A stretch of DNA of 64,000 nt. Origin: Bacteroidota bacterium. Lineage in GTDB: Bacteria; Bacteroidota; Ignavibacteria; Palsa-1295. A program made the position numbers and the translations under genes. The notes under the pieces were generated by a model. That model was not told the DNA's origin. It saw only the letters and a list, made by a program, of their open reading frames with translations, and did not search any database. Of this stretch, positions 4,837 to 60,536 are shown in pieces. Where the stretch lies: contig JAUZNX010000005.1 of the NCBI GenBank assembly GCA_030706745.1, positions 1 to 64,000 on the forward strand, read 5' to 3'. Numbering within the stretch: the stretch's first letter is position 1; every line of letters starts with the position of its first letter.

Positions 4837-6237
4837 ATGCAGAGCAGCGTTCGTTATCTTCTGTTTTTTGTGAGTTTGGTTTTTGCCACCACGCTGTACG
4901 CCCAATCGGGCGCCCAACGTGGCATGCCAGAGTTAATGCATGAGGAGGCGCCGCTTACGTTCGACATTCTCTCGTTTGCCCCGTTGCCTGCCGTTGGTCC
5001 AGACACCGTCCGCGCTGATCTCTACTTTGCTGTTCCGTACTCCGCGATGGAATTCCTGCGCAATGGGAGTAATTATGTCGCCCGGTACTCGATCAACCTG
5101 ACAATTGTCGACAGCGCATCTGGGATTACCGTACTCGATCGGTTCATGAGCTATGATGTGCGCGAGCCTTCGGTCGAGCACGAATCGCGGATCGAGGCTG
5201 GACAATCGCGAGCGGACGCGGAGCAAATCTCATTGCCCTTACCTGCCGGCGCGGCATTCCGTATCCATCTTATCTTTCGGGATCTGAACTCGCGGCATGA
5301 GCGGGATACCGTGTTCCCTTTTGTCACAAAGGCATTTCGCAATTCGAAACCTGCTCTGAGCGATCTTATGCTCTATCGTTCGCGACGTGGCCAGCGAATT
5401 GTACCCTCGATCGGCTCGGATGTGGCTAATCTCGGTAACCCGGATGCCGGAGTATTCTGCGAGGCATACAATCTTCCGGCGGATTCGCTTCTGGGTATCC
5501 TCGCCGAGGTGCTGCCGGTCGAGCAGAGCGATGGGACTCCCGAGGTTCTTGCCCGCTTTACTGGCTCTGTAAGGACTCCGTCAGTACAAACGAGGACTAT
5601 TCCGATCTTTCAGAATGTAAACTTTACCGATCTCTGGTCGGGGTATTATCGTTTGCGCTTCTTTCTTCTGCCGCGTGTCGAAGACACGTCGCTCGCCGGT
5701 CAATCTCAACTTGCTAAGCGCGCAATTGCGACAAGCGAGCGCGGCATTACCGTTAGCGGCGTGCATGGGATCCCGTTGACAAATGCGAATCTTGATGAGG
5801 CGATCGAACAGCTTCGAATTATTGCCACCTCTTCCGAGTGGGACTCACTCACTTCGGCCGAAAGTACTCGCGAAAAACGCGAAGCCATTCTGGAGTTCTG
5901 GCGGAAGCGCAACCCTAATGAGTCCGAACGCCTGGACCAAAGATCGCACACGAACCGGCCGATGCAAGTATTTTATTCGAGGATCGATTACGCGAACGCG
6001 CATTTCCATGCGGGATTTCAGTCTGGCTGGAAGAGCGATCGCGGCCGCGTATATATTGCGCTGGGGCCACCCGATGTTCTGGATCGGCATCCCTATGAAG
6101 CCAACCAGAAGCCTTACGAAGTGTGGGACTATTCTGTCCCCATGCACATGCGCTACGTCTTCGTCGACTCCTACATGCTTGGCGATTATCGTCTAACCGG
6201 AGCGGCCCCGCCGCAAGGGACTTTTGTATGGCAATGA
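4837..6237 (+). CDS. GWxTD domain-containing secreted protein
   Basis: 466 residues with a signal peptide (cleavage near LYAQ, residue 23). The C-terminal ~140 residues match the GWxTD family: an ARIDYANAHF-like segment (here SRIDYANAHF), GWKSDRGRVYIALGPPD (the GW-x-[TS]-D-x-G-R-x-Y signature), then YEVWDYS. The preceding region is beta-rich and resembles the usual companion domain. The molecular function of the family is not established to my knowledge; members occur in Bacteroidota, Acidobacteriota and related groups. It starts 15 bases after rimO, so the two may be cotranscribed. Confidence 0.85.
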   Translation: MQSSVRYLLFFVSLVFATTLYAQSGAQRGMPELMHEEAPLTFDILSFAPLPAVGPDTVRADLYFAVPYSAMEFLRNGSNYVARYSINLTIVDSASGITVLDRFMSYDVREPSVEHESRIEAGQSRADAEQISLPLPAGAAFRIHLIFRDLNSRHERDTVFPFVTKAFRNSKPALSDLMLYRSRRGQRIVPSIGSDVANLGNPDAGVFCEAYNLPADSLLGILAEVLPVEQSDGTPEVLARFTGSVRTPSVQTRTIPIFQNVNFTDLWSGYYRLRFFLLPRVEDTSLAGQSQLAKRAIATSERGITVSGVHGIPLTNANLDEAIEQLRIIATSSEWDSLTSAESTREKREAILEFWRKRNPNESERLDQRSHTNRPMQVFYSRIDYANAHFHAGFQSGWKSDRGRVYIALGPPDVLDRHPYEANQKPYEVWDYSVPMHMRYVFVDSYMLGDYRLTGAAPPQGTFVWQ

Positions 6238-6242
6238 GGATT

Positions 6243-6337
6243 GGCGAATTGCGAATTACGAATTGAATCTAAACAAAAGTGAACGACATCTCGATGGACT
6301 TTATTTGCCATTCGTAATTTGTCATTCGTAATTAATT
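6243..6337. repeat. Mirrored heptad element (95 bp)
   Basis: Left arm: three 7-base units in register, GGCGAAT, TGCGAAT, TACGAAT (6243-6263). Right arm: five units, ATTTGCC, ATTCGTA, ATTTGTC, ATTCGTA, ATTAATT (6303-6337). The reverse complement of ATTCGTA is TACGAAT, and that of ATTTGCC differs from GGCGAAT by one base, so the arms are inverted copies of the same word set around a 39-base spacer. The element fills almost the whole gap between the GWxTD gene and the glycerate-kinase-like gene, whose ATG follows 4 bases later. A folded transcript could form a long imperfect hairpin. Confidence 0.75.
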
Positions 6338-6341
6338 TCCG

Positions 6342-12840: not shown

Positions 12841-13652
12841 TGTCCAGTCCATTATGGTGGAAGCAGTTTTACGCCGCTGAGCGGACATCACTCGGCAAAA
12901 AGTACTTAGAATCGCTGATTCTCGATGCTCCGTTACTGACATTGCCGGCTCGCGGCGCGCTGATCTTCCCGCATACTCGGCTTGCGGTTTCGGGTTATCA
13001 CACGGCCGCAGTGGCTCGTGCCGTAATCGAATCCGGCTGCGACATCATTCTCGCGCTTGGAGTTCTCCATGGAGTCCCGCGCAATCCCGAATTGCGCGGT
13101 ATCCATGGCCCCGGAATGCCGAATGATATGGCGATTTGGAGTGAGGAATTCTCACTCGACAATTTCGAAGTCATGCTGGAAACAGCAGCTCGAATCCTTT
13201 CGAAGCCGATGCCTCGCCTCATCATGCGGTATCCGTTGTTGACCGGCAGCGAACCTGCATCCTTGCCGCGATATGACGAACTCCTCAGAGAGGTGGCCAA
13301 TGGCGCGGCGCTCGTTGCCACGGCGGATATGATCCATCATGGAGTGGGTTACGATACACCGGTCGAAAATCAACTGGCGATCGGCGAAGAGGCTCTGGAC
13401 ATGGCCGATCGCATGATTCGACAGATGCTCGCCGACCTTGGCGTCCATGACTATACCGGCTTTCTGCGGCATTCGGAACAAGCTCGCTCCGATTTCCGTG
13501 ATGGCGGGCCGGTTGTTGCCGAGTTGCTTGGAAGGAAGTCTCTGAAATCCGAATTGCATGATCTCATGCTTGTCGATTACTCGGAGGCCCTTGGCTCGCC
13601 GGCCCCAATGTGGGTTGCTGCCGCATTGGCCTCGATGACAAATGACGAATAA
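12840..13652 (+). CDS. MEMO1/AmmeMemoRadiSam protein B-like protein
   Basis: 270 residues. The pattern resembles the MEMO family (class III extradiol dioxygenase-like fold): ALIFPHTRLAVSGYHTAA near residue 40 in place of the usual VPHAGYxYSG, ILALGVLHG in place of the ILGPSH motif, and LVATADMIHHG near residue 160 in place of SSDFSHYG. Histidines are kept at the expected places; the catalytic role of the family is unsettled. No AMMECR1 or radical SAM partner is present in the window. The last residues and the stop codon are encoded by the left arm of a heptad element (13637-13727). The gene is coupled to the barrel gene by a 1-base overlap. Confidence 0.5.
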   Translation: MSSPLWWKQFYAAERTSLGKKYLESLILDAPLLTLPARGALIFPHTRLAVSGYHTAAVARAVIESGCDIILALGVLHGVPRNPELRGIHGPGMPNDMAIWSEEFSLDNFEVMLETAARILSKPMPRLIMRYPLLTGSEPASLPRYDELLREVANGAALVATADMIHHGVGYDTPVENQLAIGEEALDMADRMIRQMLADLGVHDYTGFLRHSEQARSDFRDGGPVVAELLGRKSLKSELHDLMLVDYSEALGSPAPMWVAAALASMTNDE

Positions 13653-13727
13653 GTAGCCATCGTCTGCCCAACTGAACCGATTCTCTTCGCTAATTTGTCA
13701 TTCGTCAATCGTGATTTGTCATTGAAC
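13637..13727. repeat. Mirrored heptad element bridging two genes
   Basis: Left arm units GACAAAT and GACGAAT (13637-13650). Right arm units ATTTGTC, ATTCGTC, AATCGTG, ATTTGTC, ATTGAAC (13693-13727), exact 7-base register; ATTTGTC and ATTCGTC are the reverse complements of the left units. The left arm contains the stop codon of the MEMO-like gene (13650-13652 at its edge), and the last right unit contains the TTG (13722) that best starts the following membrane-protein gene. Confidence 0.75.
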
Positions 13728-26704: not shown

Positions 26705-26726
26705 GGATAAGGCATTCTTGGGGACA

Positions 26727-27167
26727 AAGGCTGAGGGATGAAGGCTGAGGGAAAGCGGGGATGGCACCAGCGCGCGAGAAGACCTGCGCCACCGGACGGT
26801 GCGCTATGCTCTCGGTGTAATGGACTTTTCCGAGTCAATTCCCAACAATCCTCGCGGTTGGGTTATTTCGAAGCAGATACTGCGCTCTGGCACTTCCGTT
26901 GGGGCGCAGTACCGAGAAGCTCGCCGGGCAAAATCGAACGCGGACTTCATTAGCAAGTTAGAGGGTTCTCTGCAAGAACTTGATGAGACCCTCTATTGGC
27001 TTGAGCTAATCGAGGAGTCGAAACTTGTTGCCCACCAGCACATTGATACCCTGAAGAATGAAACGGGTCAACTCATCGCGATCTTTACGACCATCGTCAA
27101 GAAAGTGAAGAAGTACTAAGGCATTCGTTTTTCCTTCAGCCCTCATCCTTCATCCTTCATCCTTACC
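26727..27167. mobile_element. Heptad-flanked element carrying a four-helix-bundle gene
   Basis: Left arm: 7-base units AAGGCTG, AGGGATG, AAGGCTG, AGGGAAA (26727-26754). Right arm: CCTTCAG, CCCTCAT, CCTTCAT, CCTTCAT, CCTTACC (27133-27167), exact register. The reverse complement of CCTTCAT is ATGAAGG, a word also found across the left-arm units, so the arms are inverted relative to each other around ~380 bases that hold little but the four-helix-bundle gene. A 10-base direct repeat, TAAGGCATTC, occurs at 26708-26717 and 27117-27126, but the right copy lies inside the right arm, so it is not a simple target-site duplication. Calling this mobile is inference from structure. Confidence 0.5.
26799..27119 (+). 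CDS. Four-helix-bundle protein (23S rRNA intervening-sequence protein / S23 family)
   Basis: 106 residues from GTG 26799. The core matches the family well: WVISKQILRSGTSVGAQYREARRAKSNADFISKLEGSLQELDETLYWLELI, then a last helix ending in KKVKKY. Members are found inside 23S rRNA intervening sequences, as free genes in many genomes, and as the Avd accessory protein of diversity-generating retroelements; their usual function is unknown. The start is odd: in-frame codons upstream of the GTG still encode family-like sequence (DLRHRT before VRYALGVM), but no ATG, GTG or TTG precedes them before the stop at 26739. An ATG inside the heptad arm (26738) is in another frame. The start may be frameshifted, or use a CTG. 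Confidence 0.8.
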   Translation: MRYALGVMDFSESIPNNPRGWVISKQILRSGTSVGAQYREARRAKSNADFISKLEGSLQELDETLYWLELIEESKLVAHQHIDTLKNETGQLIAIFTTIVKKVKKY

Positions 27168-27170
27168 CCC

Positions 27171-28481
27171 TTGCTTGCAACTGTAGCTATTCTTGGTCGG
27201 CCGAACGTCGGCAAATCGACGCTCTTTAACCGGCTCGTCGGCGAGCGCCGCGCGATCACGGAAGCGGTCAGCGGCGTCACGCGCGATCGCCACTATGCGC
27301 AGGCGGAGTGGTCGGGTTACACATACGATCTCGTCGATACTGGCGGCGTCGTACCCGATTCCGAGGACATTTTCGAGCGCGCCATCCGCGAGCAGGCTGA
27401 ACTTGCTATCGAGGAGGCGGACGTCCTGATCTTTGTCGTCGATGTCACGAGCGGTGTCCATCCACTCGATCAGGAAGTTGCCGAAATCCTTCGAAAAAGC
27501 GGTAAGCCTGTCCTTCTCGCGGTCAACAAGACCGATAACCTTAAACGAGAGCAGCAGGAAGTCGCCGAATTCTATTCGTTAGGGCTTGGCGAGCCAATTC
27601 CCGTCAGTGCCATTAGTGGCCGCGGTGTCGGCGATTTTCTCGATCTCGTCATTGCCAGATTTCCGGCCAAAGCGCCAGAGCCAGAAGGCGAGCAGCCGAT
27701 CAAGATCGCAATTCTTGGCAAGCCCAACGTCGGCAAATCGAGCTATATGAACTCGCTGCTCGGATTCGACCGTGCGATCGTAACGCCGATCGCGGGCACG
27801 ACGCGCGACACGCTCCACACAAATTACACCTACTACGGCTCGCCGATCACGCTGATCGACACTGCCGGGCTCCGCCGCCGCAAATACATATCGAGCACGG
27901 TCGAAATGTACTCCACGATCCGCACGATGAAAGCGATCGAAGAGTGCGACGTCGCGCTCGTCCTGCTCGATGCAATGCAGGGGCTCGAAAGTCAAGACGC
28001 GAAAATCGTCAATGAGGTCATCGATGCACGCAAGGGCGCAGTCCTGGTCGTCAATAAATGGGACTTACTGGAAAAGGACACGATGACGTCCGCGCGATTC
28101 GAAAAGTCGATCAAAGAAACATTTCGGACGTTCGATTATCTGCCCGTCGTCTTTATCAGTGCACTGACCAAACAGCGCCACACAAAGCCCATTGAACTCG
28201 CAATAAAAGTTGCTGCCGAACGCAAGAAGCGCATCGATACCAACGAGTTGAACACCGTGTTGATCGAAGCCCTCGAGCGGACGCCACCACCGAACGTTCG
28301 CGGTCACGATCTCCGCATCAACTACATCACGCAAGTCAAGATCGAGCCGCCGGTCTTCGCATTCTTCTCCAATTTCCCTGAGGAGATTCCGGAGCATTAT
28401 AAGCGATTCTTAGAGCGCACCCTCCGCGATAAGTACGGCTACGAAGGGACGCCGATCTCATTTATTTTTCGAAAGAAGTAA
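27171..28481 (+). CDS. der: Ribosome-assembly GTPase Der (EngA)
   Basis: 436 residues with two tandem GTPase domains and a KH-like C-terminal domain. G-domain 1: GRPNVGKST (residue ~9), DTGG, NKTD. G-domain 2: GKPNVGKSS (near 183), DTAG, NKWD. The C-terminus includes PPPNVRGHDLRINYITQ and PPVFAFFSN, typical of Der. It works in 50S subunit maturation. The start is TTG 27171, directly at the N-terminus expected for the family; no in-frame ATG lies upstream. The TTG sits in the run-out of the heptad array that ends the four-helix-bundle element, so this essential gene abuts the element. Confidence 0.95.
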   Translation: MLATVAILGRPNVGKSTLFNRLVGERRAITEAVSGVTRDRHYAQAEWSGYTYDLVDTGGVVPDSEDIFERAIREQAELAIEEADVLIFVVDVTSGVHPLDQEVAEILRKSGKPVLLAVNKTDNLKREQQEVAEFYSLGLGEPIPVSAISGRGVGDFLDLVIARFPAKAPEPEGEQPIKIAILGKPNVGKSSYMNSLLGFDRAIVTPIAGTTRDTLHTNYTYYGSPITLIDTAGLRRRKYISSTVEMYSTIRTMKAIEECDVALVLLDAMQGLESQDAKIVNEVIDARKGAVLVVNKWDLLEKDTMTSARFEKSIKETFRTFDYLPVVFISALTKQRHTKPIELAIKVAAERKKRIDTNELNTVLIEALERTPPPNVRGHDLRINYITQVKIEPPVFAFFSNFPEEIPEHYKRFLERTLRDKYGYEGTPISFIFRKK

Positions 28482-28718: not shown

Positions 28719-29744
28719 TTACTTCGCATGAAGATCATATTCATACGCATACTCATCGACCGAGCTCGGCTTGTCTTTCCCGTCGATGGTGGCGACTATC
28801 TCCTTTTCGAGTCCATTCGCGCTGTATGTCGTGATGTTCTTCAGGCGACCGATATCTTCGTACACACTGATTCGACCGTAGTTATCATATCGATAGCGAT
28901 AGTGCGGTTTGCCGTCTTTTCCGAAGTCTTCATCAACATGATGCTGAGGATCGGAAATGCTCGCTGGGAGGGTCGGCCCCTGAACGCCGTCCTTCCAAAC
29001 TGATTCGGAATCAGTCCGGATACGGCCGGCGCCATCAAACGCGGATACTAACACTTTTTTGGTCCGGGGACTGGAGTCGCAACAATTTCCGGAATCGCCA
29101 ATGACATGATACTTGATTGCCACAGTACAGGAGGGACGGCCGTGATTATCGAAACTACACACAGTACTGGCCGCGCGATGACCGTTGACCCGACTTTCCC
29201 AACTCATCTGATGTCCGGATGGGTCGAACCGGTACAGCGCAGTCCGAATGCCGGATGGCTCCTTGTGACTGGAATCGAGTGTGCCGGCAATTGCCGTCCA
29301 TGCCACGGTATGATTGGCGTCGTCATATTGATAAGCCTGAATTCCGCCGTTGTGATCTGCCAGCCGTGCCACGCGATCGAACGGATCATATACTGTGGTA
29401 TCCCTCGACGGGCCATCGACAAACCACATTGTTCGGACCTGCGTCAGTGTATCACCGCTCAGGAGCGCATATCGGAATTCGCACTTAAAGGTATCGGTCG
29501 GTTCTCCCGCCGGATTAAACTGAATCATACGGACGAGTTCGAGGCTGACGTGGTTTGCCCGCCTGAGATAGATTCTCGCTCGGTCGACGCTGTCAAGCGA
29601 CATCGTGTGACTCCCATAGTGCGGAGGTGGAATCGCCGACTGATGCGATTTACAGCCGGAGATTGCAAGAAATAGGAAGATGGCCATCCACGATACAAAT
29701 GAAGTCGGGACAGTAGGTGTGGAGCGCAAATGTTGTCTTCTCAA
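28719..29744 (-). CDS. Lipoprotein with YD/RHS-like repeats
   Basis: 341 residues from TTG 29744. A hydrophobic segment (SWMAIFLFLAISGC) ends in a lipobox, with the lipidated cysteine at about residue 31. The start is uncertain: the TTG lies inside a 17-base tandem repeat, and ATG 29687 would give a very short signal. The body shows YD-repeat-like turns (VYDPFDRVARLADHNGGIQAYQYDD, FDNHGRPSCT, FDGAGRIRTDS, YDNYGRISVYEDIG), resembling RHS-type strands but far too short for a toxin shell. It is probably an outer-membrane-attached protein of unknown role. Confidence 0.6.
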   Translation of the reverse strand: MRRQHLRSTPTVPTSFVSWMAIFLFLAISGCKSHQSAIPPPHYGSHTMSLDSVDRARIYLRRANHVSLELVRMIQFNPAGEPTDTFKCEFRYALLSGDTLTQVRTMWFVDGPSRDTTVYDPFDRVARLADHNGGIQAYQYDDANHTVAWTAIAGTLDSSHKEPSGIRTALYRFDPSGHQMSWESRVNGHRAASTVCSFDNHGRPSCTVAIKYHVIGDSGNCCDSSPRTKKVLVSAFDGAGRIRTDSESVWKDGVQGPTLPASISDPQHHVDEDFGKDGKPHYRYRYDNYGRISVYEDIGRLKNITTYSANGLEKEIVATIDGKDKPSSVDEYAYEYDLHAK

Positions 29745-29774
29745 GAGGTGGTGGTAATCAAGAGGTGGTGGTAA
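29741..29774. repeat. Two perfect tandem copies of a 17-base unit
   Basis: The unit TCAAGAGGTGGTGGTAA stands at 29741-29757 and again at 29758-29774. The first copy overlaps the TTG start of the YD-repeat lipoprotein. Confidence 0.8.
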
Positions 29775-29923: not shown

Positions 29924-30361
29924 TCACATCCCCGGCTGCGGATTGACGCTTTGCATTACGCCAAACGTATTGCCCTCAGTATCGAGGCAATAGGCGAAAT
30001 ACCCGACATCCGGGATCAGATCCTTCGGCATTTTGATCTTGCCGCCAGCCGCGACGACTTTCGCGAGATACGCGTCGATGTCCGGCACGTCGATGGTGTT
30101 CACAGTCCCCGCGCCGGGCTCCGGACGCATGAGCATACCGCCGTTAATGCCGGGCCATTGGGCATTCGTGGCAGTATTGGCGGGTGCGCCATTGGCGGGT
30201 GCGCCGGCACTTGTGCCGCTCTTGGCATTGTCCGTATTAACGAGCCAGTACGGCATTGGGCCGTCCCATTTTGTGATTTGCCAGCCGAATACGTCCGAGT
30301 AGAATTTCGTCGCCCGGTCGGCATTGTCCATTGGAATTTCAAAGTGTACGATGCGTGGCAT
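29924..30361 (-). CDS. VOC (glyoxalase/bleomycin-resistance fold) family protein
   Basis: 145 residues with the two beta-alpha-beta-beta-beta modules of the vicinal oxygen chelate fold: RIVHFEIPMDNADRATKFYSDVFGW at the start, and VNTIDVPDIDAYLAKVVAAGGKI with FAYCLDTEGNTFGVMQ in the second half. The family includes glyoxalase I, dioxygenases and resistance proteins; the substrate cannot be assigned. A short Ala/Gly/Pro/Asn insertion (GAPANGAPANTATNA), encoded by a small direct DNA repeat, sits in the loop joining the modules. Confidence 0.88.
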   Translation of the reverse strand: MPRIVHFEIPMDNADRATKFYSDVFGWQITKWDGPMPYWLVNTDNAKSGTSAGAPANGAPANTATNAQWPGINGGMLMRPEPGAGTVNTIDVPDIDAYLAKVVAAGGKIKMPKDLIPDVGYFAYCLDTEGNTFGVMQSVNPQPGM

Positions 30362-30442
30362 AAAGTGCTCTTTCTAAGAATCGTTAGGTGAATACGATAA
30401 TAGGTGCCCATCAGGGGCGCCATCAATATACGACAAAATCTT

Positions 30443-30569
30443 GTGGTTAGTTGAGAGTGGACCGTGGAAGGATGAGTGTGCGGATCGATGATTCGAGATT
30501 ATGAGGCCGGTCCATATTCATTATTCACTCTTCAACTGTCAACTATCCACTCTCAACTATCCACTATCC
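30443..30569. repeat. Mirrored heptad element upstream of the OmpA-like gene
   Basis: Left arm: GTGGTTA, GTTGAGA, GTGGACC, GTGGAAG, GATGAGT, GTGCGGA (30443-30484). Right arm: eight contiguous units, ATATTCA, TTATTCA, CTCTTCA, ACTGTCA, ACTATCC, ACTCTCA, ACTATCC, ACTATCC (30514-30569). The 14-base word at 30448-30461 is the exact reverse complement of 30547-30560. It is the longest contiguous heptad array in the window. It occupies much of the 245-base gap between the VOC and OmpA-like genes. Confidence 0.8.
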
Positions 30570-30606
30570 CGCTGTTACCGGAATCCCGTTTACCCGTAGT
30601 GCGGTT

Positions 30607-38175: not shown

Positions 38176-39003
38176 TTACTTTAGATAGACCATTTTCGAA
38201 GCCCGTGCTGCGCTTCCGAAAATCCCAAGGCCGCCAGTAATGTGCAATGTGTTGTTATTGAATTGCGAGCGAGCAAGGTAGAGTCCAAGGACATATTCTT
38301 CGAAATTTCTATCGAGCGCAAGCGCCCGGATCACGTTTGGCCCAAAATACATATACTGCTGCCAGACGACTTGCTCATCCGTTGAAAGAATAAAAAAGCG
38401 GTACCGGGCCTGTGCAAGTGTGTCGCTGTTCAGCGAGGCGCGACCGAGAATGCGATCCGATGTATCGAGCGAGAGTGCTTCGGTCCCATAGCCGGCTGAG
38501 TTGGGACTTGCCGACCAAAAGAGATGAATCCCAGGACTTGTTAGACTGTCTATATCGACTGTTCCCGGGTAAATAATCGAATCAACATCGGTGAGTGAGA
38601 GTCGTTGCCCGCGGAATGTTACCGAATCGAGTCGGATCGCATCCGGTACCGTTGTCTCTGACGTCGCGACTTGTCCGAGCGCCTCAACGCGGAGCCGGTA
38701 AGTTTTCCCGGGCTGAATCACGATCGGTACATTAGAGATATAGCGACCGTGGACAGGGCCAGCGGCTTCGATAAGCGGATAGGTGCTGTCTCCGTTAGCG
38801 AGCGTGACTCGCGCGCCGCTCACGCGATCATCCCCGCTCGATTCCCTGACAGCGATAGTTCGGCGAACCACAATAGAATCCACCGGTTCATTCGCATACA
38901 GAAATCCCTGCACCACGATTTGTGGCGTGAACGTCGATTCTGTCACCGACAAGCAACCGGACAGAATGAGTAACATGGATAAATGACGAATGACAAATGA
39001 CAA
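38176..39003 (-). CDS. DUF4249-family lipoprotein (second copy)
   Basis: 275 residues from TTG 39003, which yields a lipoprotein signal (SFVIRHLSMLLILSGC) with a basic n-region; the ATG at 38976 would leave only seven residues before the cysteine. Family features: TPQIVVQGFLYANEPVDSIVVRRTIAVRE, SGARVTLANGDSTYPLIEA, PGKTYRLRVEALGQVATSETTVPDAI. The n-region and TTG start are encoded by the heptad element at 38985-39086 that separates it from its TonB receptor. An even longer frame exists upstream but only translates the repeat. Confidence 0.8.
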   Translation of the reverse strand: MSFVIRHLSMLLILSGCLSVTESTFTPQIVVQGFLYANEPVDSIVVRRTIAVRESSGDDRVSGARVTLANGDSTYPLIEAAGPVHGRYISNVPIVIQPGKTYRLRVEALGQVATSETTVPDAIRLDSVTFRGQRLSLTDVDSIIYPGTVDIDSLTSPGIHLFWSASPNSAGYGTEALSLDTSDRILGRASLNSDTLAQARYRFFILSTDEQVVWQQYMYFGPNVIRALALDRNFEEYVLGLYLARSQFNNNTLHITGGLGIFGSAARASKMVYLK

Positions 39004-39086
39004 ATAGAATAGCTTCGGATCGGCGGAGGCATTTGCTGTGCCCGATACGCAGTTTGTCATTCGCAATTTGTCATTTGTCATTAGTA
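38985..39086. repeat. Mirrored heptad element between a TonB receptor and its lipoprotein
   Basis: Left arm: GACGAAT, GACAAAT, GACAAAT (38985-39005). Right arm: GTTTGTC, ATTCGCA, ATTTGTC, ATTTGTC, ATTAGTA (39052-39086), 7-base register; ATTTGTC is the reverse complement of GACAAAT. The spacer is 46 bases. The receptor's stop codon (39081-39083) lies in ATTAGTA and the lipoprotein's TTG (39003) lies in the left arm. The paralogous receptor/lipoprotein pair at 33395 has no such element and overlaps by one base. Confidence 0.8.
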
Positions 39087-41363
39087 ACTGACCTCCATTC
39101 CAAGCGTCGGAATAATCGGTAGCAGCAATACATCCGAGATTTCGGGTGGCTGTTTCTGCGTATCGACGACGCGGAACCACACGTTCCGGTGGCTGTAGAG
39201 ATTAAAGACATCAAGCGAAGCCTTGGCAGGTTTGCCAAAGAATGAAAAGGAATATGTTAGGCTGGCATCTGCGCGGTGATAGTCCGGCAATCGCAGGGCG
39301 CCCATCATACCCGGAATATCGAGATTGCCTTCATACCCCGTCTCGTCGAATCCTACGTGATAATAACCCAGCACGGATGTATATGCCTGCCCGGTTGCGT
39401 AGCTCCACGTAGCGCCGATTTGCCAGCGGTCGGAGAGTTTATAGTTAAGGACGAGCTGAATATCGTGCCGCTGATCGTACTTCGGATAAAACGCTTGTCC
39501 ATTGTTGAGTTGCGGGATCTGTTCGGTGACCCAGGAGAGTGTGTATCCGATCCAGCCATTGAGGTCGCCGACTTGCTTGCGGAAGAGCAATTCCAGTCCG
39601 TATGCTTCGCCGGTGCCGCGCGGGAAAAGTTGCGTGATGTCGTTGGTCAGAAATTTCGTCTCGTCATATTCCACGATGTTCTTGAGTCGTTTGTAGTACA
39701 ACTCGCACGAAGCGAAATATGCATCGCCTATAACATCCGGGACTGGATATCCGCTGATTCCCAGGATGTATTGCGTGCTCTGGCTCGGAGGCAGCGGCGA
39801 AGTACCCGGCACCCAAAGATCGAAAAAGGTAAATTCGCCTGCAGTTACCAGATGCAGAAACTGATGGTACATTCCAGTCGAAGCCTTCAGCGTCCAGAGA
39901 GGACTTAACTGATACGCGATCGTCAATCGTGGATCGATCGTGATTGCGCTGGCGACATCGAGCCACTCAGCTCGCATTCCACCGGTCGCCGTAATCTTGT
40001 CATTCGGTTTCCACTCATCCTGCGCGTATGCCGCAAGATAATTAGGGACGCCGCCAGTATCATTGAGCGGCTTGTTGGTCGTCCCAAGCGTATTGAAGAA
40101 TGTAAACTGAAATCGTGACACACTGGCGCCCATGCGGATATCGTGCTGATTATTTAGCCGCCAATCCAAGTCTTCCGAAATGGAAAACTCTTGAATGCCA
40201 TTGTCGAACTCGAACGGACTGGAGGTCAGATTGCCAAGTGATTGCGAAGAGTATGCGGAGTAGCCAGCAAAGGTCCGGGCAAATAGCGTCGGCGAAAAGA
40301 TGTGTGTCCAGTCGGCGCTGGCGAGTTGGTTACCCCATGTGAGCGTAATATCGACAACACCATTAGATGGCACGTGTAAATGATCGGCACCCAGGTACCC
40401 GGAGATACTCAGCCGGTCCTTTGGGCCCAAATCCTGATCGATTTTCGCATTCAGATCATAAAAATAATAGCGCGGAAGCTGGATCGAATCACTGAAGAGC
40501 TTATCGGCGTGCGTGAGATTCAAAAACGCATCGACGTAGGTGCGCCGTCCGCTGATAAGCGCCGATCCATTCAAGAGAGGAAACTCAAGCGTTTGCCGAG
40601 CGCTGATCAGACTGATCGAGGTCTTCCCATGCAGCGCATTGCGATCTCCTTCGCGTGTCGTCACATTGAGGACGCCGGTGAGTCTTCCACCGTATTCCGG
40701 TGGGTATCCGCCCTTTATCAGATCGACATCCTTAATTGCATCGGTATTGAATGTGCTAAAGAATCCGAATAAGTGTGAGGGATTATACACGACATTATGA
40801 TCGAGCAGGATTAAGTTTTGGTCGGGCGCACCCCCGCGGATGTAGAGTCCACTCGAGACTTCGCTGAGGGCCTTGACTCCGGGCAGCAGCTGGAGCACCC
40901 GAAATAGATCGCTCTCGCCGCCGATGGCCGGTACACTGGAGATGATCTGCGGAGTGAGCATAATCCGGCTTACGCTCGTCCGCTCGGCCTCTCGCTCCTT
41001 CTCGCCTTGCACGATCACTTCTTTGCCTTGCACGTTTTGGGTTCGCAGCCGGAAGTTCAGGACGCGCCGTTCACCAGCCACGAGCGTGATTGTTCGTGCT
41101 TCGACTGCATACCCGAGCAGGTGCACTTCGACGCCCAGTACTCCCGATGGCAAATTATCGATGTGATAATTGCCTGCCGTGTCGGCAATCGCTCCCGTAT
41201 GGAGCGATCGAAGCTCGATGCGAGCGCCTGCCAGTGCCTCGCCTGTGGTGGAATCGCGAACGCTGCCCTGAAGCGTTGCCGATGACTGAGCGCGGAGAGT
41301 TGTCTGCATCCAGAGCAGAGCAATCACAGAAACAAAAGCTAATCTCGCGGTCATCAACCTCAT
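39081..41363 (-). CDS. TonB-dependent receptor with carboxypeptidase-regulatory-like domain (second copy)
   Basis: 760 residues. Signal peptide (cleavage near LRAQS), carboxypeptidase-regulatory-like domain (LQGSVRDSTTGEALAGARIELRSL), plug (SVPAIGGESDLFRVLQLLPGVKALSEVSSGLYIRGGAPDQNLILLD, PPEYGGRLTGVLNV) and barrel with the typical TWSYATGQAYT segment near the end, which is also present in the paralogue at 33395. Its ATG overlaps the stop of a GT-C membrane protein (ATGA), so the receptor is translationally linked to the glycosylation locus, which suggests a glycan-related ligand (inference). Confidence 0.92.
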   Translation of the reverse strand: MRLMTARLAFVSVIALLWMQTTLRAQSSATLQGSVRDSTTGEALAGARIELRSLHTGAIADTAGNYHIDNLPSGVLGVEVHLLGYAVEARTITLVAGERRVLNFRLRTQNVQGKEVIVQGEKEREAERTSVSRIMLTPQIISSVPAIGGESDLFRVLQLLPGVKALSEVSSGLYIRGGAPDQNLILLDHNVVYNPSHLFGFFSTFNTDAIKDVDLIKGGYPPEYGGRLTGVLNVTTREGDRNALHGKTSISLISARQTLEFPLLNGSALISGRRTYVDAFLNLTHADKLFSDSIQLPRYYFYDLNAKIDQDLGPKDRLSISGYLGADHLHVPSNGVVDITLTWGNQLASADWTHIFSPTLFARTFAGYSAYSSQSLGNLTSSPFEFDNGIQEFSISEDLDWRLNNQHDIRMGASVSRFQFTFFNTLGTTNKPLNDTGGVPNYLAAYAQDEWKPNDKITATGGMRAEWLDVASAITIDPRLTIAYQLSPLWTLKASTGMYHQFLHLVTAGEFTFFDLWVPGTSPLPPSQSTQYILGISGYPVPDVIGDAYFASCELYYKRLKNIVEYDETKFLTNDITQLFPRGTGEAYGLELLFRKQVGDLNGWIGYTLSWVTEQIPQLNNGQAFYPKYDQRHDIQLVLNYKLSDRWQIGATWSYATGQAYTSVLGYYHVGFDETGYEGNLDIPGMMGALRLPDYHRADASLTYSFSFFGKPAKASLDVFNLYSHRNVWFRVVDTQKQPPEISDVLLLPIIPTLGMEVSY

Positions 41364-50905: not shown

Positions 50906-52521
50906 CTCGATTGGTACAGTCGAAGCGTGTCGATGTCATCCCATCGGGGATCGCAGTAACTTCGGGCCTGATCTGTCAGATGACCGGTCCGTTCTCCAAT
51001 TACCGTATAGAATGAATCCGCGATGGGACGCAACTGGCTTTGCCAGCGAACTGTAGAATAAAGCAAAAGATATCGGACGTTGTGGTCGCGAAGAATCTCT
51101 GCTGGCGATCTATTCTCTGCTCCAAACAAGAGGAAATGTTTGGTCATTAGATGAAGATTCGAACCGGCGTGACTTCGTTCATAGTAGGCAACTTCATTAA
51201 GTGCCGGTTCATCCACGAGAATAAACGAATCATGTGCAGACTCTAGGAATGACTCAAGCGAATTCTCGCGGGTAATCTTCTGAGCAACACGTCCATAACT
51301 TTCCTGCCGCATGATGGTCAAGACTGCGATCGCGACCATTCCAATCGTGGCAAGAATAGGAGTCAAGCGCATTTGCAGTAGTGGACCGAGCGTAACTGCA
51401 CAACAGACCGCTACGACTGGCAAGATGTGGATATTATAAAACACGGCTGGTCCTTCGAATGCACACCAACCGACGAGCGTGAGCGCTGAGAGCATGAGCC
51501 AGTCTACCTGACTTGCAGTGAATCGATGTCGTTTCCAGATTCTGAATAGCACACCAATAATCATCAATAATACCAGCGGCCAGGCGACTTGCCAAACCTG
51601 GACGGCGCGGTCAATGGTATTAATCTTCTGGACTTGCCACGAGAATGGATGGAGAATAGGCAAGGAGTTCGCAACATTGTAATACTGATTGTATCCATGG
51701 CCCAATAGATCAACCGACCCTGTTGTCGCCCAATAAGCGCCAACGAGGATCATGGAACCGCCCAGCAGCCCAGCCAACGCCGATAGCAAACATCGCCAAT
51801 TTCGAAGGGCATCTATGCGCCATAATGCATAGAGTGCCGGCAATGCAATCAGGGTGGGCACATGAACATATATGGCGAGAGAGAGCACACCCAGAAACAC
51901 GATCGCAAAAGAAGTTATTGGTTTCGTGCTCTTTCCTCGCTCAAGAAGGCGCCACAAGAAAACAAGATATGCCAGTGTTGCCAGCCCCGTAGCGGTATCA
52001 AAACGTGCCGAGTGGCTGGAGAATGCGAACGCATCGCATGAAACAAGGGCAAGCACAGAGAGAGAGACCGCGATGCGGTCCTCGGTAAGCAATCGTGAAG
52101 CTCGAATGGATATCAACAGGGTAACGATTGAAAGCAACATCGTCATGCTTCGTCCGATCGCAACTGGACTCGCAAGCAAGGCAAGAAAAGTCGCCGGAAT
52201 CCCATAGAGTAATCCGGTGATCCAAATTGAACCGTTGATCAGACCGTTCGAGTATGCCAGCGAGGATCCAATCGCTTCAGGCATGTGGGCGACGCCGGTT
52301 GCCGCGAAGGCACGGGCTGTCAGCATCGTCCAGCTTTCATCGCCGAACCACATACCGGTATCCGGGACTGGATAAGTGAAGAGGAAGCGTGATTGATCGA
52401 TTAAGAGTAGGAGAATGAGCACAAGAAGCACGCTATGAATCACGACTGACGAACTTCGAATGTGGGACTGAGAATTTGTCATTCGTACTTCAGCATTCGA
52501 CACTTCAGAACGCTCACTCAT
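50902..52521 (-). CDS. Tandem GT-C-like membrane protein, paralogue 4 of 5, N-terminus encoded by heptad repeat
   Basis: 539 residues from ATG 52521. Signature segments: YPVPDTGMWFGDESWTMLTARA, IGSSLAYSNGLINGSIWITGLLYGIPA, FSSHSARFDTATGLA, LHLMTKHFLLFGAENRSPAEIL. The first ~28 residues before the first helix (around SNAEVRMTNSQSHIRSSS) are encoded by the heptad element at 52441-52508 and have no counterpart in paralogue 3, so the true start may be the internal ATG at MTNSQSH. The gene overlaps paralogue 5 by 8 bases. Confidence 0.75.
   Translation of the reverse strand: MSERSEVSNAEVRMTNSQSHIRSSSVVIHSVLLVLILLLLIDQSRFLFTYPVPDTGMWFGDESWTMLTARAFAATGVAHMPEAIGSSLAYSNGLINGSIWITGLLYGIPATFLALLASPVAIGRSMTMLLSIVTLLISIRASRLLTEDRIAVSLSVLALVSCDAFAFSSHSARFDTATGLATLAYLVFLWRLLERGKSTKPITSFAIVFLGVLSLAIYVHVPTLIALPALYALWRIDALRNWRCLLSALAGLLGGSMILVGAYWATTGSVDLLGHGYNQYYNVANSLPILHPFSWQVQKINTIDRAVQVWQVAWPLVLLMIIGVLFRIWKRHRFTASQVDWLMLSALTLVGWCAFEGPAVFYNIHILPVVAVCCAVTLGPLLQMRLTPILATIGMVAIAVLTIMRQESYGRVAQKITRENSLESFLESAHDSFILVDEPALNEVAYYERSHAGSNLHLMTKHFLLFGAENRSPAEILRDHNVRYLLLYSTVRWQSQLRPIADSFYTVIGERTGHLTDQARSYCDPRWDDIDTLRLYQSR
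52441..52508. repeat. Mirrored heptad element inside the 5' end of a coding region
   Basis: Left arm: CACGACT, GACGAAC, TTCGAAT (52441-52461). Right arm: ATTTGTC, ATTCGTA, CTTCAGC, ATTCGAC, ACTTCAG (52474-52508), 7-base register. TTCGAAT reverse-complements to ATTCGAA, close to ATTCGAC. The words overlap with those at 13693 (ATTTGTC, AATCGTG) and 6310 (ATTCGTA). The spacer is only 12 bases. The element is translated as the N-terminal tail of the minus-strand paralogue 4. Confidence 0.65.
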
Positions 52522-58790: not shown

Positions 58791-59539
58791 TTCTTCCGAA
58801 GCACTATGAAGAGTGATACTCCAAATGGTGGATGAAACCACAGCGCTTTGCTCGGCTCGACAAAGAGCTTCATCATCAACGCATTCACTCGTGGCGAGGG
58901 AATCTTGTCTTCAGCGCGCGATGTGAGCCGGACAAGTCGCGCCACTTTCCGATACAGCCAGATGGCCGGAAATGCGAATACATTAATATAATCGAGATAG
59001 ACGACCTCGTATGGTGCCGGACGTAGCTGGGCTTGCACGCGATCTCTGAATTTCCGTTTCGTGTAGCGCCGGAAGTGTCCTAGCGAGACGTCCCAATCGC
59101 TCCACAAGCTCATAAACGCCGGCACATTGATGATGAGAAGGCCGCCCGGTTTTGTTATCCGCAACATTTCCGCGAACGCTCGCGCATCTTCTTCGACATG
59201 TTCCAGGACATCGAGAGCGATCGTGACCGCACAACTTTCATCGCGCAGAGGTAAGTCAAGAATAGAGCCTTCGAGCAAGTCGGTCCCTTTTCGCTCGCGC
59301 GCGAGCCTCCGACCCTCAGCAGAGTACTCGATTCCAATAACAGAAATTCCTTTGTGTTCGTACATGCCGCCTAGTTCCCGCACTAACTCTCCGGTGCCGG
59401 CACCAGCATCCAGAATGCGGTCGCCAGCATCAAGATGTGCGGCGCGTTCGATCCACCAGCGCACGAGCAGACGCTTGCCTTTATAAAACCAATGTTCGCG
59501 CTCGACTCTTTCGAGGGCGTCGTATTCGGCGATCTGCAA
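58787..59539 (-). CDS. Class I SAM-dependent methyltransferase
   Basis: 250 residues. The start is TTG 59539, followed by a YDALERVEREHWFYKGKRLLVRWWI N-terminal helix seen in many polysaccharide-locus methyltransferases. SAM-binding motif I is ILDAGAGTGELV (residue ~43), the acidic residue after strand 2 is in GIEYS, and the later strand is ALDVLEHVEED, with LRITKPGGLLIINVPAF. It probably methylates a sugar or a lipid carrier for the locus. The TTG lies in the last unit of a heptad array, and the upstream GT2 gene stops 5 bases away in the same array. Confidence 0.82.
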   Translation of the reverse strand: MQIAEYDALERVEREHWFYKGKRLLVRWWIERAAHLDAGDRILDAGAGTGELVRELGGMYEHKGISVIGIEYSAEGRRLARERKGTDLLEGSILDLPLRDESCAVTIALDVLEHVEEDARAFAEMLRITKPGGLLIINVPAFMSLWSDWDVSLGHFRRYTKRKFRDRVQAQLRPAPYEVVYLDYINVFAFPAIWLYRKVARLVRLTSRAEDKIPSPRVNALMMKLFVEPSKALWFHPPFGVSLFIVLRKK

Positions 59540-59570
59540 TGTGCTATGTGCTAAGTAAAGTGTGCTGAGC
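59536..59570. repeat. Five-unit heptad array at a gene junction
   Basis: Plus-strand units GCAATGT, GCTATGT, GCTAAGT, AAAGTGT, GCTGAGC, contiguous in 7-base register. On the minus strand the array encodes the last residues and stop (59544-59546, in GCTATGT) of the GT2 gene and the TTG start (59537-59539, in GCAATGT) of the methyltransferase gene. No mirrored arm is seen, so this may be a half element. Confidence 0.6.
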
Positions 59571-60536
59571 TACAACGCCCGGGACCAGCTCGCTCGAGGT
59601 CGTGATAATCTCGTTAATGACGTAGTGCGGCCGCTGCTTCACTTCGTCGTATATGCGGCCGAGATACTCGCCGAGAATCCCAATGGAAATCAACTGAATG
59701 CCACCGAGCAAAAGAATGGCAACCGTTGGAGTGGTGAAACCGGGAACGACATCGATATGAAATACGCGTAGGATCAGTAAGTACAGGGCGTAAGCGATCG
59801 AGAAAATACTGACAATGAACCCAAGCGTCCAGATCGCTCGCAACGGTTTCAGGCTAAAGCTGAAGATCGCATCGAAGGCATATCGCACAAGTCGGCCAAA
59901 GGTCTGTTTGGGCTCACCCGAGGCACGCTTTTCGCGGTCGTAAATCACATCGGCTTGCTCATACCCGACCCAGGAGCGAAGTCCCGGGAAGAACCGGTTG
60001 CGCTCACGCAATCGTATCATTTCATTTGCGACCCGTCGATCGATCAATCCGAAGACGCCACTGCCCGTTTCCATTTTGAGATCACTCACGCGTGCGAGCA
60101 TCGAATGGAATAGCTTGAAGAGCATCCCCTTGAGTCCCCGCTCGGCACGCGACCGTCGCTTGGCCACGACAACCTTGGGTCCGCGGAGCCAGGTTCGGAC
60201 CAGATCAGGAATCAGTTCGGGGGGATCCTGCAAGTCCCCATCCATAATAATAATGGCATCGCCATGCGCATACTCGAGACCGGCCTGGATTGCCGGCTGA
60301 TGTCCGAAATTTCGAGAGAGATCGATCACTGCGAGCCGGGGATCCTTCGTGGCATATCCGCGAAGGATTTCCAATGTCCGATCATGCGAACCATCATTTA
60401 CAATGACCCACTCACCAGCAAGGCCAGTGGATGTTTCGAGTCCGTTCAGAACCCGCGTCATTCGGTCGAAGAGTTCGCTCAGGAGCGATTCTTCGTTGTA
60501 GATCGGCATCACAATCGAAACAGTGCGGCTTGGCAT
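59544..60536 (-). CDS. GtrB/DPM1-like polyprenyl-phosphate glycosyltransferase
   Basis: 330 residues. Family 2 glycosyltransferase domain: VSIVMPIYNEESLLSEL, VIVNDGSHDRT, RNFGHQPAIQAGLE, IIIMDGDLQDPPELIPDLV (the D-x-D metal motif), then two membrane helices (LRAIWTLGFIVSIFSIAYALYL and TPTVAILLLGGIQLISIGILGEYLGRIYDEVKQRPHYVI), the complete GtrB layout. It transfers a sugar from a nucleotide donor to polyprenyl phosphate at the cytoplasmic face. The last eight residues (VAQHTLLST region) come from the heptad array. Confidence 0.9.
   Translation of the reverse strand: MPSRTVSIVMPIYNEESLLSELFDRMTRVLNGLETSTGLAGEWVIVNDGSHDRTLEILRGYATKDPRLAVIDLSRNFGHQPAIQAGLEYAHGDAIIIMDGDLQDPPELIPDLVRTWLRGPKVVVAKRRSRAERGLKGMLFKLFHSMLARVSDLKMETGSGVFGLIDRRVANEMIRLRERNRFFPGLRSWVGYEQADVIYDREKRASGEPKQTFGRLVRYAFDAIFSFSLKPLRAIWTLGFIVSIFSIAYALYLLILRVFHIDVVPGFTTPTVAILLLGGIQLISIGILGEYLGRIYDEVKQRPHYVINEIITTSSELVPGVVAQHTLLST

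Follow-up and report, generated by a model that had tools for sequence, protein, structure and literature searches.

In REPIN-RAYT systems a single gene is flanked by inverted repeat copies, and many mirrored copies without an open reading frame (ORF) are dispersed through the genome. The presence of the repeat is coupled to the presence of the gene. The IVP/S23p gene, which encodes a four-helix bundle, is common and is annotated without a function in many bacterial genomes. In Xanthomonas, S23p is a toroidal homopentamer according to work cited in PMC4990558. In Coxiella, the intervening sequence (IVS) of the 23S rRNA gene carries GACAGAT heptamers ahead of the IVP ORF (PMC4990558). Heptamer repeats have also been described on their own. 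The TAACTGA repeats of Beggiatoaceae have a 7-base unit, are mostly intergenic and mix related words; they are described as direct repeats, inverted in a single case, without any gene linked to them, and heptamer repeats are distributed patchily across Cyanobacteria, Bacteroidetes and Beggiatoaceae (PMC4679880). In Nostoc, heptamers form the P6b stem in the group I intron of trnL(UAA), with words of Class I (TDNGATT) or Class II (NNTGAGT) (PMC4476775).

Here, we analyze a window of 64,000 nucleotides from an Ignavibacteria genome together with 800 kb fetched from the same genome (864 kb in all). Eight gene junctions of the window had been predicted to carry degenerate 7-base units in exact register, six of them as mirrored elements. 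Four junctions are solid (6243, 26722-27162, 30443 and 38981; elements A to D in Table 1): their mirrored arms have a matching word set and keep the exact register inside the arms. The junction at 13637 is a weak remnant whose left arm contains the gene stop. The runs at 1154 and 59536 are one-sided, and the element proposed at 52441 does no better than chance (fold z -0.2 for 52430-52515). TRF and a lag scan of the window return the arrays 6244-6265 with 6303-6333, 27131-27172, 30531-30569, 38981-39005 with 39053-39082, and 59535-59553. Spacers were expected to measure tens of base pairs and to be far longer in the gene-bearing element, which is what we find (about 377 bp in the latter). The window also contains perfect tandem duplications of 17 bp and 15 bp at 29741-29774 and 30176-30205 (TCAAGAGGTGGTGGTAA twice and ATTGGCGGGTGCGCC twice), which are unrelated to the heptamers.

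Table 1. Heptamer features of the window. Fold z is the RNA folding z-score against dinucleotide shuffles, with the folded interval in brackets.
Feature	Start	End	Strand	Description	Remarks
Heptamer run	1154	1187		imperfect, one-sided, without mirror	fold z -0.5 (1150-1225)
Element A, left arm	6244	6265		7-mers GCGAATT/GCGAATTAC	ORF-less; fold z -2.4 (6236-6341)
Element A, right arm	6303	6333		ATTTGCCATTCGTA units	
Weak remnant	13637	13702		GACAAATGACGAATAA ... GCTAATTTGTCA, two units per arm	fold z -2.0 (13630-13702)
Element B, left arm	26722	26754		GGCTGAGGGATGAAGGCTGAGGG	arm score 21
IVP gene	26799	27119	+	23S rRNA intervening-sequence protein (PF05635)	GTG start as listed
Element B, right arm	27130	27162		TTCCTTCAGCCCTCATCCTTCATCCTTCATCC	
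Element C, left arm	30443	30475		GGTTAGTTGAGAGTGGA	ORF-less; fold z -3.5 (30436-30575)
Element C, right arm	30531	30569		CAACTATCCACTCTCAACTATCC	
Element D, arm	38981	39005		AAATGACGAATGACAAATGAC	ORF-less; fold z -4.6 (38973-39090)
Element D, other arm	39048	39082		CGCAATTTGTCATTTGTCATT	
Heptamer run	59535	59553		GTGCTATGTGCTAAG, one-sided, without mirror	fold z +1.0 (59530-59585)

The arrays extend through the genome. With a lag-7 self-match of at least 17/21, the 864 kb hold 44 arrays compared to about one in order-3 Markov sequence. At lag 14 there are 19 arrays (one in Markov sequence), at lag 9 ten, at lag 18 eight, and at most other lags about one to five. These lag spectra rule out chance or low complexity as the origin of the arrays. 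Score thresholds are our choice; a looser one gives 53 arrays, about half of them with an inverted partner nearby. The original prediction had named the lack of a lag-7 excess over control sequence as a refuting condition, and the excess is clear. Its view of one family, constant in period and mirrored layout and variable in words, holds genome-wide.

Element A sits at the junction of a GWxTD gene and the glycerate kinase gene, and its right-arm array recurs in the same or nearly the same form elsewhere in the genome (27 pattern matches). Element D (38973-39090) lies inside the 5' end of a DUF4249 ORF on the minus strand, and the frame stays open. Besides DUF4249, the host encodes T9SS-like sorting ends, and together these features suggest a lineage of the Bacteroidota type.

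Element B carries a gene. Pfam assigns this gene to PF05635 (E 4e-17), it matches PDB entry 2rld (E 8e-21), and the whole element sits between two protein genes, an upstream gene and der, not inside a 23S rRNA gene. In the IVP gene of the window no ATG is in frame: ATGGCACCAGCG.. is shifted by one base relative to the conserved REDLRHRTVRYALG start. This copy may have suffered a 1-nt slip near the N-terminus, or its start may be the GTG further downstream. PF05635 genes number four in the genome, all beside short-period arrays. Two go with 7-mers, and two encode a longer protein and go with 9-mers; for one of the latter, locus L014, the arm score of 11 is below the threshold of the 350-bp test described below and the period-9 arrays were judged by eye. 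The long-form IVPs of loci L318 and L296 (184-266 aa) have partly self-complementary period-9 arrays, for example AATCGGTCAGATCAGACCG, and one such array falls within the C-terminal part of its own ORF. At L294 (1499-1542) there is a second array with another word family (AATGACGAATTACG), some 350 bp away from an IVP element whose arms consist of GATAGTG.

A comparison with relatives directly shows gain or loss of elements, reuse of sites, and states with and without the gene; the direction of these changes is what we infer. The predicted presence/absence variation between close relatives, whose lack was the other refuting condition of the original prediction, is seen at three junctions. At the glycerate kinase junction, the element is absent in five congeners. 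Upstream of der, our genome has arms and IVP, while G001 (Der 91% identical) has the same arm words around a spacer of about 18 bp and no gene, G003 has other words, and G005 and G006 are empty. Nothing occupies the DUF4249 junction in G001, G002 and G005. G003 has a mirrored element of unrelated words there, and G004 a half array; every occupied case begins at a TAATG stop-start overlap. The arrays of G003 and G004 at this site precede the signal peptide and also appear to be in frame. G001 carries a remnant of another word at the 30607 junction. Sites are reused in another genus as well: at the paaA-paaB junction, five species carry one of two different types of IVP with arms, and four species have no element. 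In the occupied species (L195-L203) the end of the right arm seems to supply the paaB start codon, and they lack the AAGGAG ribosome site that the empty form has. No consistent target-site duplication is found at the few empty and occupied sites inspected by eye. One candidate duplication, a repeated GTTACT next to the element of the DUF4249 junction, could be due to chance.

The architecture of element B is widespread. The IVP loci compared here come from 61 genomes of the class, from 80 named GTDB loci (Acidobacteria, Verrucomicrobia, Bacteroidetes, Chloroflexi, Planctomycetes, Proteobacteria and others) and from nine plasmid loci. IVP is present in 49 of the 61 genomes and in none of 14 control genomes. 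When the left and right 350-bp flanks are compared as inverted complements (score at least 16), 89% of 107 loci match. The corresponding values are 12% for cross-paired flanks of different loci, 11% for flanks compared in direct orientation and 0.4% for other parts of the same loci. Grouped into 54 synteny-independent clusters, 85% have mirrored arms (6% when cross-paired) and about 15% have no clear arms at this threshold. A lag-7 array lies within 350 bp of IVP in 55% of cases (control 6%). All nine plasmid IVPs, from cyanobacteria and a spirochaete among others, have mirrored arms. Four cyanobacterial plasmid IVPs (L280, L281, L282 and L286) lie beside or inside defence operons, with cas1/cas2, DISARM drmD and BREX pglX, or Swt1-HEPN. 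Because IVP genes of many phyla are framed in the same way, the family is not peculiar to this lineage; the original prediction had missed the identity of the gene and with it this wider occurrence.

Inside the arms, autocorrelation is highest at lags 7 (0.64) and 14 (0.58), compared to 0.25-0.31 at most other lags. It also reaches 0.36 at lag 8 and 0.41 at lag 15, the latter because arms of Bacteroidales mix spacings of 7 and 8. The modal arm length of 33-35 nt corresponds to about five units. The 5' arms share a common unit, nnGA(T/A/G)(T/G)(G/T), beyond what column-permuted and strand-randomised controls give, but some elements break the rule of GA in the 5' arm, for example those of Nostoc and Dolichospermum. 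IVP is in sense with both neighbours in 34 clusters and antisense in four, and elements lie between co-directional genes such as hisB-hisH, hemF-hemB and those of a sugar-kinase operon. We had suspected that syntenic Bacteroidales loci lie inside 23S rRNA. Rfam gives no LSU rRNA match in 20 IVP loci, and one of the syntenic Bacteroidales loci is a sugar kinase / hexonate epimerase operon.

Protein and repeat are coupled at several levels. A pattern with GA every 7 bases has 0-3 matches in 12 genomes without IVP and a median of 23 in the 49 genomes with IVP. Heptamer arrays can match the reversed pattern too, which makes it invalid as a control; therefore forward and reversed matches are used together as the array count. 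Across the 61 genomes, co-occurrence of IVP and arrays has a p of 5e-7 and a Spearman correlation of 0.60, statistics that ignore phylogeny. Some relatives (G041, G050, G043, G023 and G017) have hundreds of matches, up to 968. In fetched DNA, array density is 2.7/Mb in IVP-less genomes, 21/Mb in IVP-rich genomes (a small sample) and 59/Mb in our genome. The last value is a counter-point to an IVP-driven element, as our genome has only four IVP genes and yet exceeds the IVP-rich genomes. Among non-syntenic loci, IVP identity predicts the similarity of arm words (GC-controlled Mantel r 0.31, p 0.001). This includes cross-phylum pairs such as L163 and L119; since taxon names come largely from MAGs, as do many of the loci, single cross-phylum cases could be binning errors. 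The period changes with the protein: 61 of 108 short-form loci have a lag-7 array and two a lag-9 array, whereas 18 long-form loci show period 9 in eight cases and period 7 in one (Fisher 3e-8 against the short form). IVP is under strong purifying selection, with a dN/dS of 0.01-0.17 in nine pairs, orthologous or close, for which dS is finite (up to 2.1).

How do these elements relate to the described systems? Element B is not a 23S IVS, but it is built like one. The 23S IVS with an S23p/IVP ORF in Coxiella and Leptospira encode the same protein family, have inverted terminal arms that form a hairpin around the ORF, and insert where continuity of the RNA is dispensable. The elements here differ in lying between protein genes and inside operons, in their many ORF-less copies, and in arms built throughout from heptamers or nonamers, with words specific to the element. 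The Coxiella copy is decaying (PMC4990558), whereas selection maintains the IVPs studied here.

The elements share with REPINs their dispersed, mirrored, ORF-less copies and their presence/absence between relatives. However, the cognate gene is IVP, without a Y1 (HUH) tyrosine transposase domain, and the repeat is a short-period array of variable words instead of one conserved palindrome. A MITE of a DNA transposon would have a constant terminal inverted repeat and a target-site duplication; our arms share period and unit pattern, not sequence, and no consistent duplication is seen at the few empty sites mentioned above. Like STRR repeats, the arrays are tandem degenerate 7-mers in intergenic DNA. 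The original prediction was right to see this likeness, but incomplete: the AATTCGT heptamer arrays on plasmids of Nostoc and Dolichospermum, an STRR type, are themselves the mirrored arms of IVP genes. TAACTGA repeats differ from our arrays, which are mirrored and tied to IVP. The P6b words fit the GA-every-7 unit and one class replaces another at a single site; P6b differs in that the stem lies inside an intron loop, for which the P6b passages of PMC4476775 report no gene. The original prediction knew of no description of the mirrored form in this lineage. Elsewhere, a mirrored heptamer stem is known from Nostoc P6b (PMC4476775), and heptamers beside an IVP ORF are known from the Coxiella IVS (PMC4990558).

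To explain these observations, we propose with moderate confidence that the mirrored heptamer elements are copies of a mobile IVP element and its ORF-less derivatives, comparable to REPINs or MITEs. Such an element would consist of two inverted arms, each of about five degenerate 7-base words, that enclose the IVP gene in the full form and a short spacer in the reduced form. IVP probably recognises the repeated words, because the period that changes with the subfamily, the words that track the protein and the arrays that track the presence of IVP all point there. Recognition could take place on DNA or RNA, perhaps with one unit per subunit of the reported toroidal homopentamer. IVP would then act in cis and in trans, inserting or maintaining the element and its ORF-less derivatives, a role that would parallel that of RAYT for REPINs. 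We know of no catalytic domain in IVP, and for this reason movement in trans is a step that we infer. The full-form elements that survive would mostly be those in sense between cistrons. The probable reason is that the gene is transcribed there and that a hairpin does no harm, as for an IVS in a 23S rRNA helix.

The arms could instead function in RNA, as a hairpin of the polycistronic mRNA that is cut by RNase III like a 23S IVS, with IVP as an accessory. The preference for sense orientation between cistrons and the strong predicted hairpins would fit, and the Coxiella IVS is indeed excised by RNase III (PMC4990558). Yet selection on RNA pairing would give an excess of G-U pairs over A-C mismatches, and there is none: 93 elements, read in the sense of IVP, have 100 of the former and 120 of the latter. 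We therefore reject RNA pairing as the selected property. In the orthologous Bacteroidales set, the fixed ATTTAC / GTAAAT is kept in both arms, and the variable base of the word forms a pair in only about 12 of 32 cases (a hand count, among the arms listed), so it is the word rather than the pairing that is kept. Whether a gap is tandem, divergent or convergent also makes no difference to the occurrence of ORF-less elements in our genome, and overall we consider an RNA-level function unlikely. A neutral process, in which STRR-type slippage and template switching grow the arrays and IVP is a bystander that tolerates repeats, is less plausible still. It would account for array lengths that differ between loci, for a word at the DUF4249 junction that resembles the host TAATG in three species, and for the mirrored order of units that template switching gives, although the permutation test for this order is biased by segment choice and carries little weight. 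However, slippage does not tie arrays to the presence of IVP or arm words to its sequence, nor does it explain why one word recurs at many sites in the same genome. It cannot fix one period across phyla or switch it to 9 with the protein subfamily, and this last coupling largely refutes it.

Other enzymes might move the arrays. A Y1 transposase of the IS200/RAYT type would do so as for REPINs, and with seven Y1_Tnp genes in our genome and the family common in relatives, candidates abound. But their number predicts arrays less well than IVP does (Spearman 0.29 against 0.60), genomes with Y1 and no IVP have 0-3 matches while those with IVP and no Y1 have 1-189, and none of five examined Y1 genes of our genome has a heptamer array within about 600 bp. 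With this weak correlation and no linkage, we reject Y1 mobilisation as very improbable. We give hardly any credence to retromobility, in which IVP would partner a reverse transcriptase of the diversity-generating or group II type as Avd does. PF05635 resembles Avd of diversity-generating retroelements (PMC10053308), but our genome, 99.5% complete and rich in arrays, has no RVT_1 (PF00078) domain, and a retroelement that depends on reverse transcriptase is rejected on this ground.

Returning to the IVP element, the simplest picture is a ring in which each subunit reads one unit, a hypothesis suggested by the reported toroidal homopentamer of the family and by arms that hold about five units. 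A stronger version can be offered as a tentative possibility, which on balance we lean against. IVP might be a TRAP-like ring that reads repeats: five subunits would each bind one arm unit, the period would be set by subunit size, at 7 in the short form and 9 in the long one, and the ring would build, copy or insert the arms without a transposase. Its footprint would then be the heptamer repeats that have gone unexplained for decades.

The open-access literature that we searched describes the parts separately; we find no account in it of a general coupling between IVP and heptamers, and the coupling appears to be undescribed there. It joins two old and separate puzzles, the heptamer repeats (STRR, TAACTGA and trnL P6b) and the orphan, ring-shaped IVP/S23p. 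IVP gains a first candidate substrate, and the repeats gain a candidate cause. For STRR-type heptamers no partner gene had been reported (PMC4679880), and the IVP element explains at least part of them. The coupling also suggests a reason for the period of 7, as the longer subfamily goes with 9. If IVP is a ring-shaped reader of repeats that builds, copies or inserts arms without a transposase, then these elements would be a new kind of mobile element.
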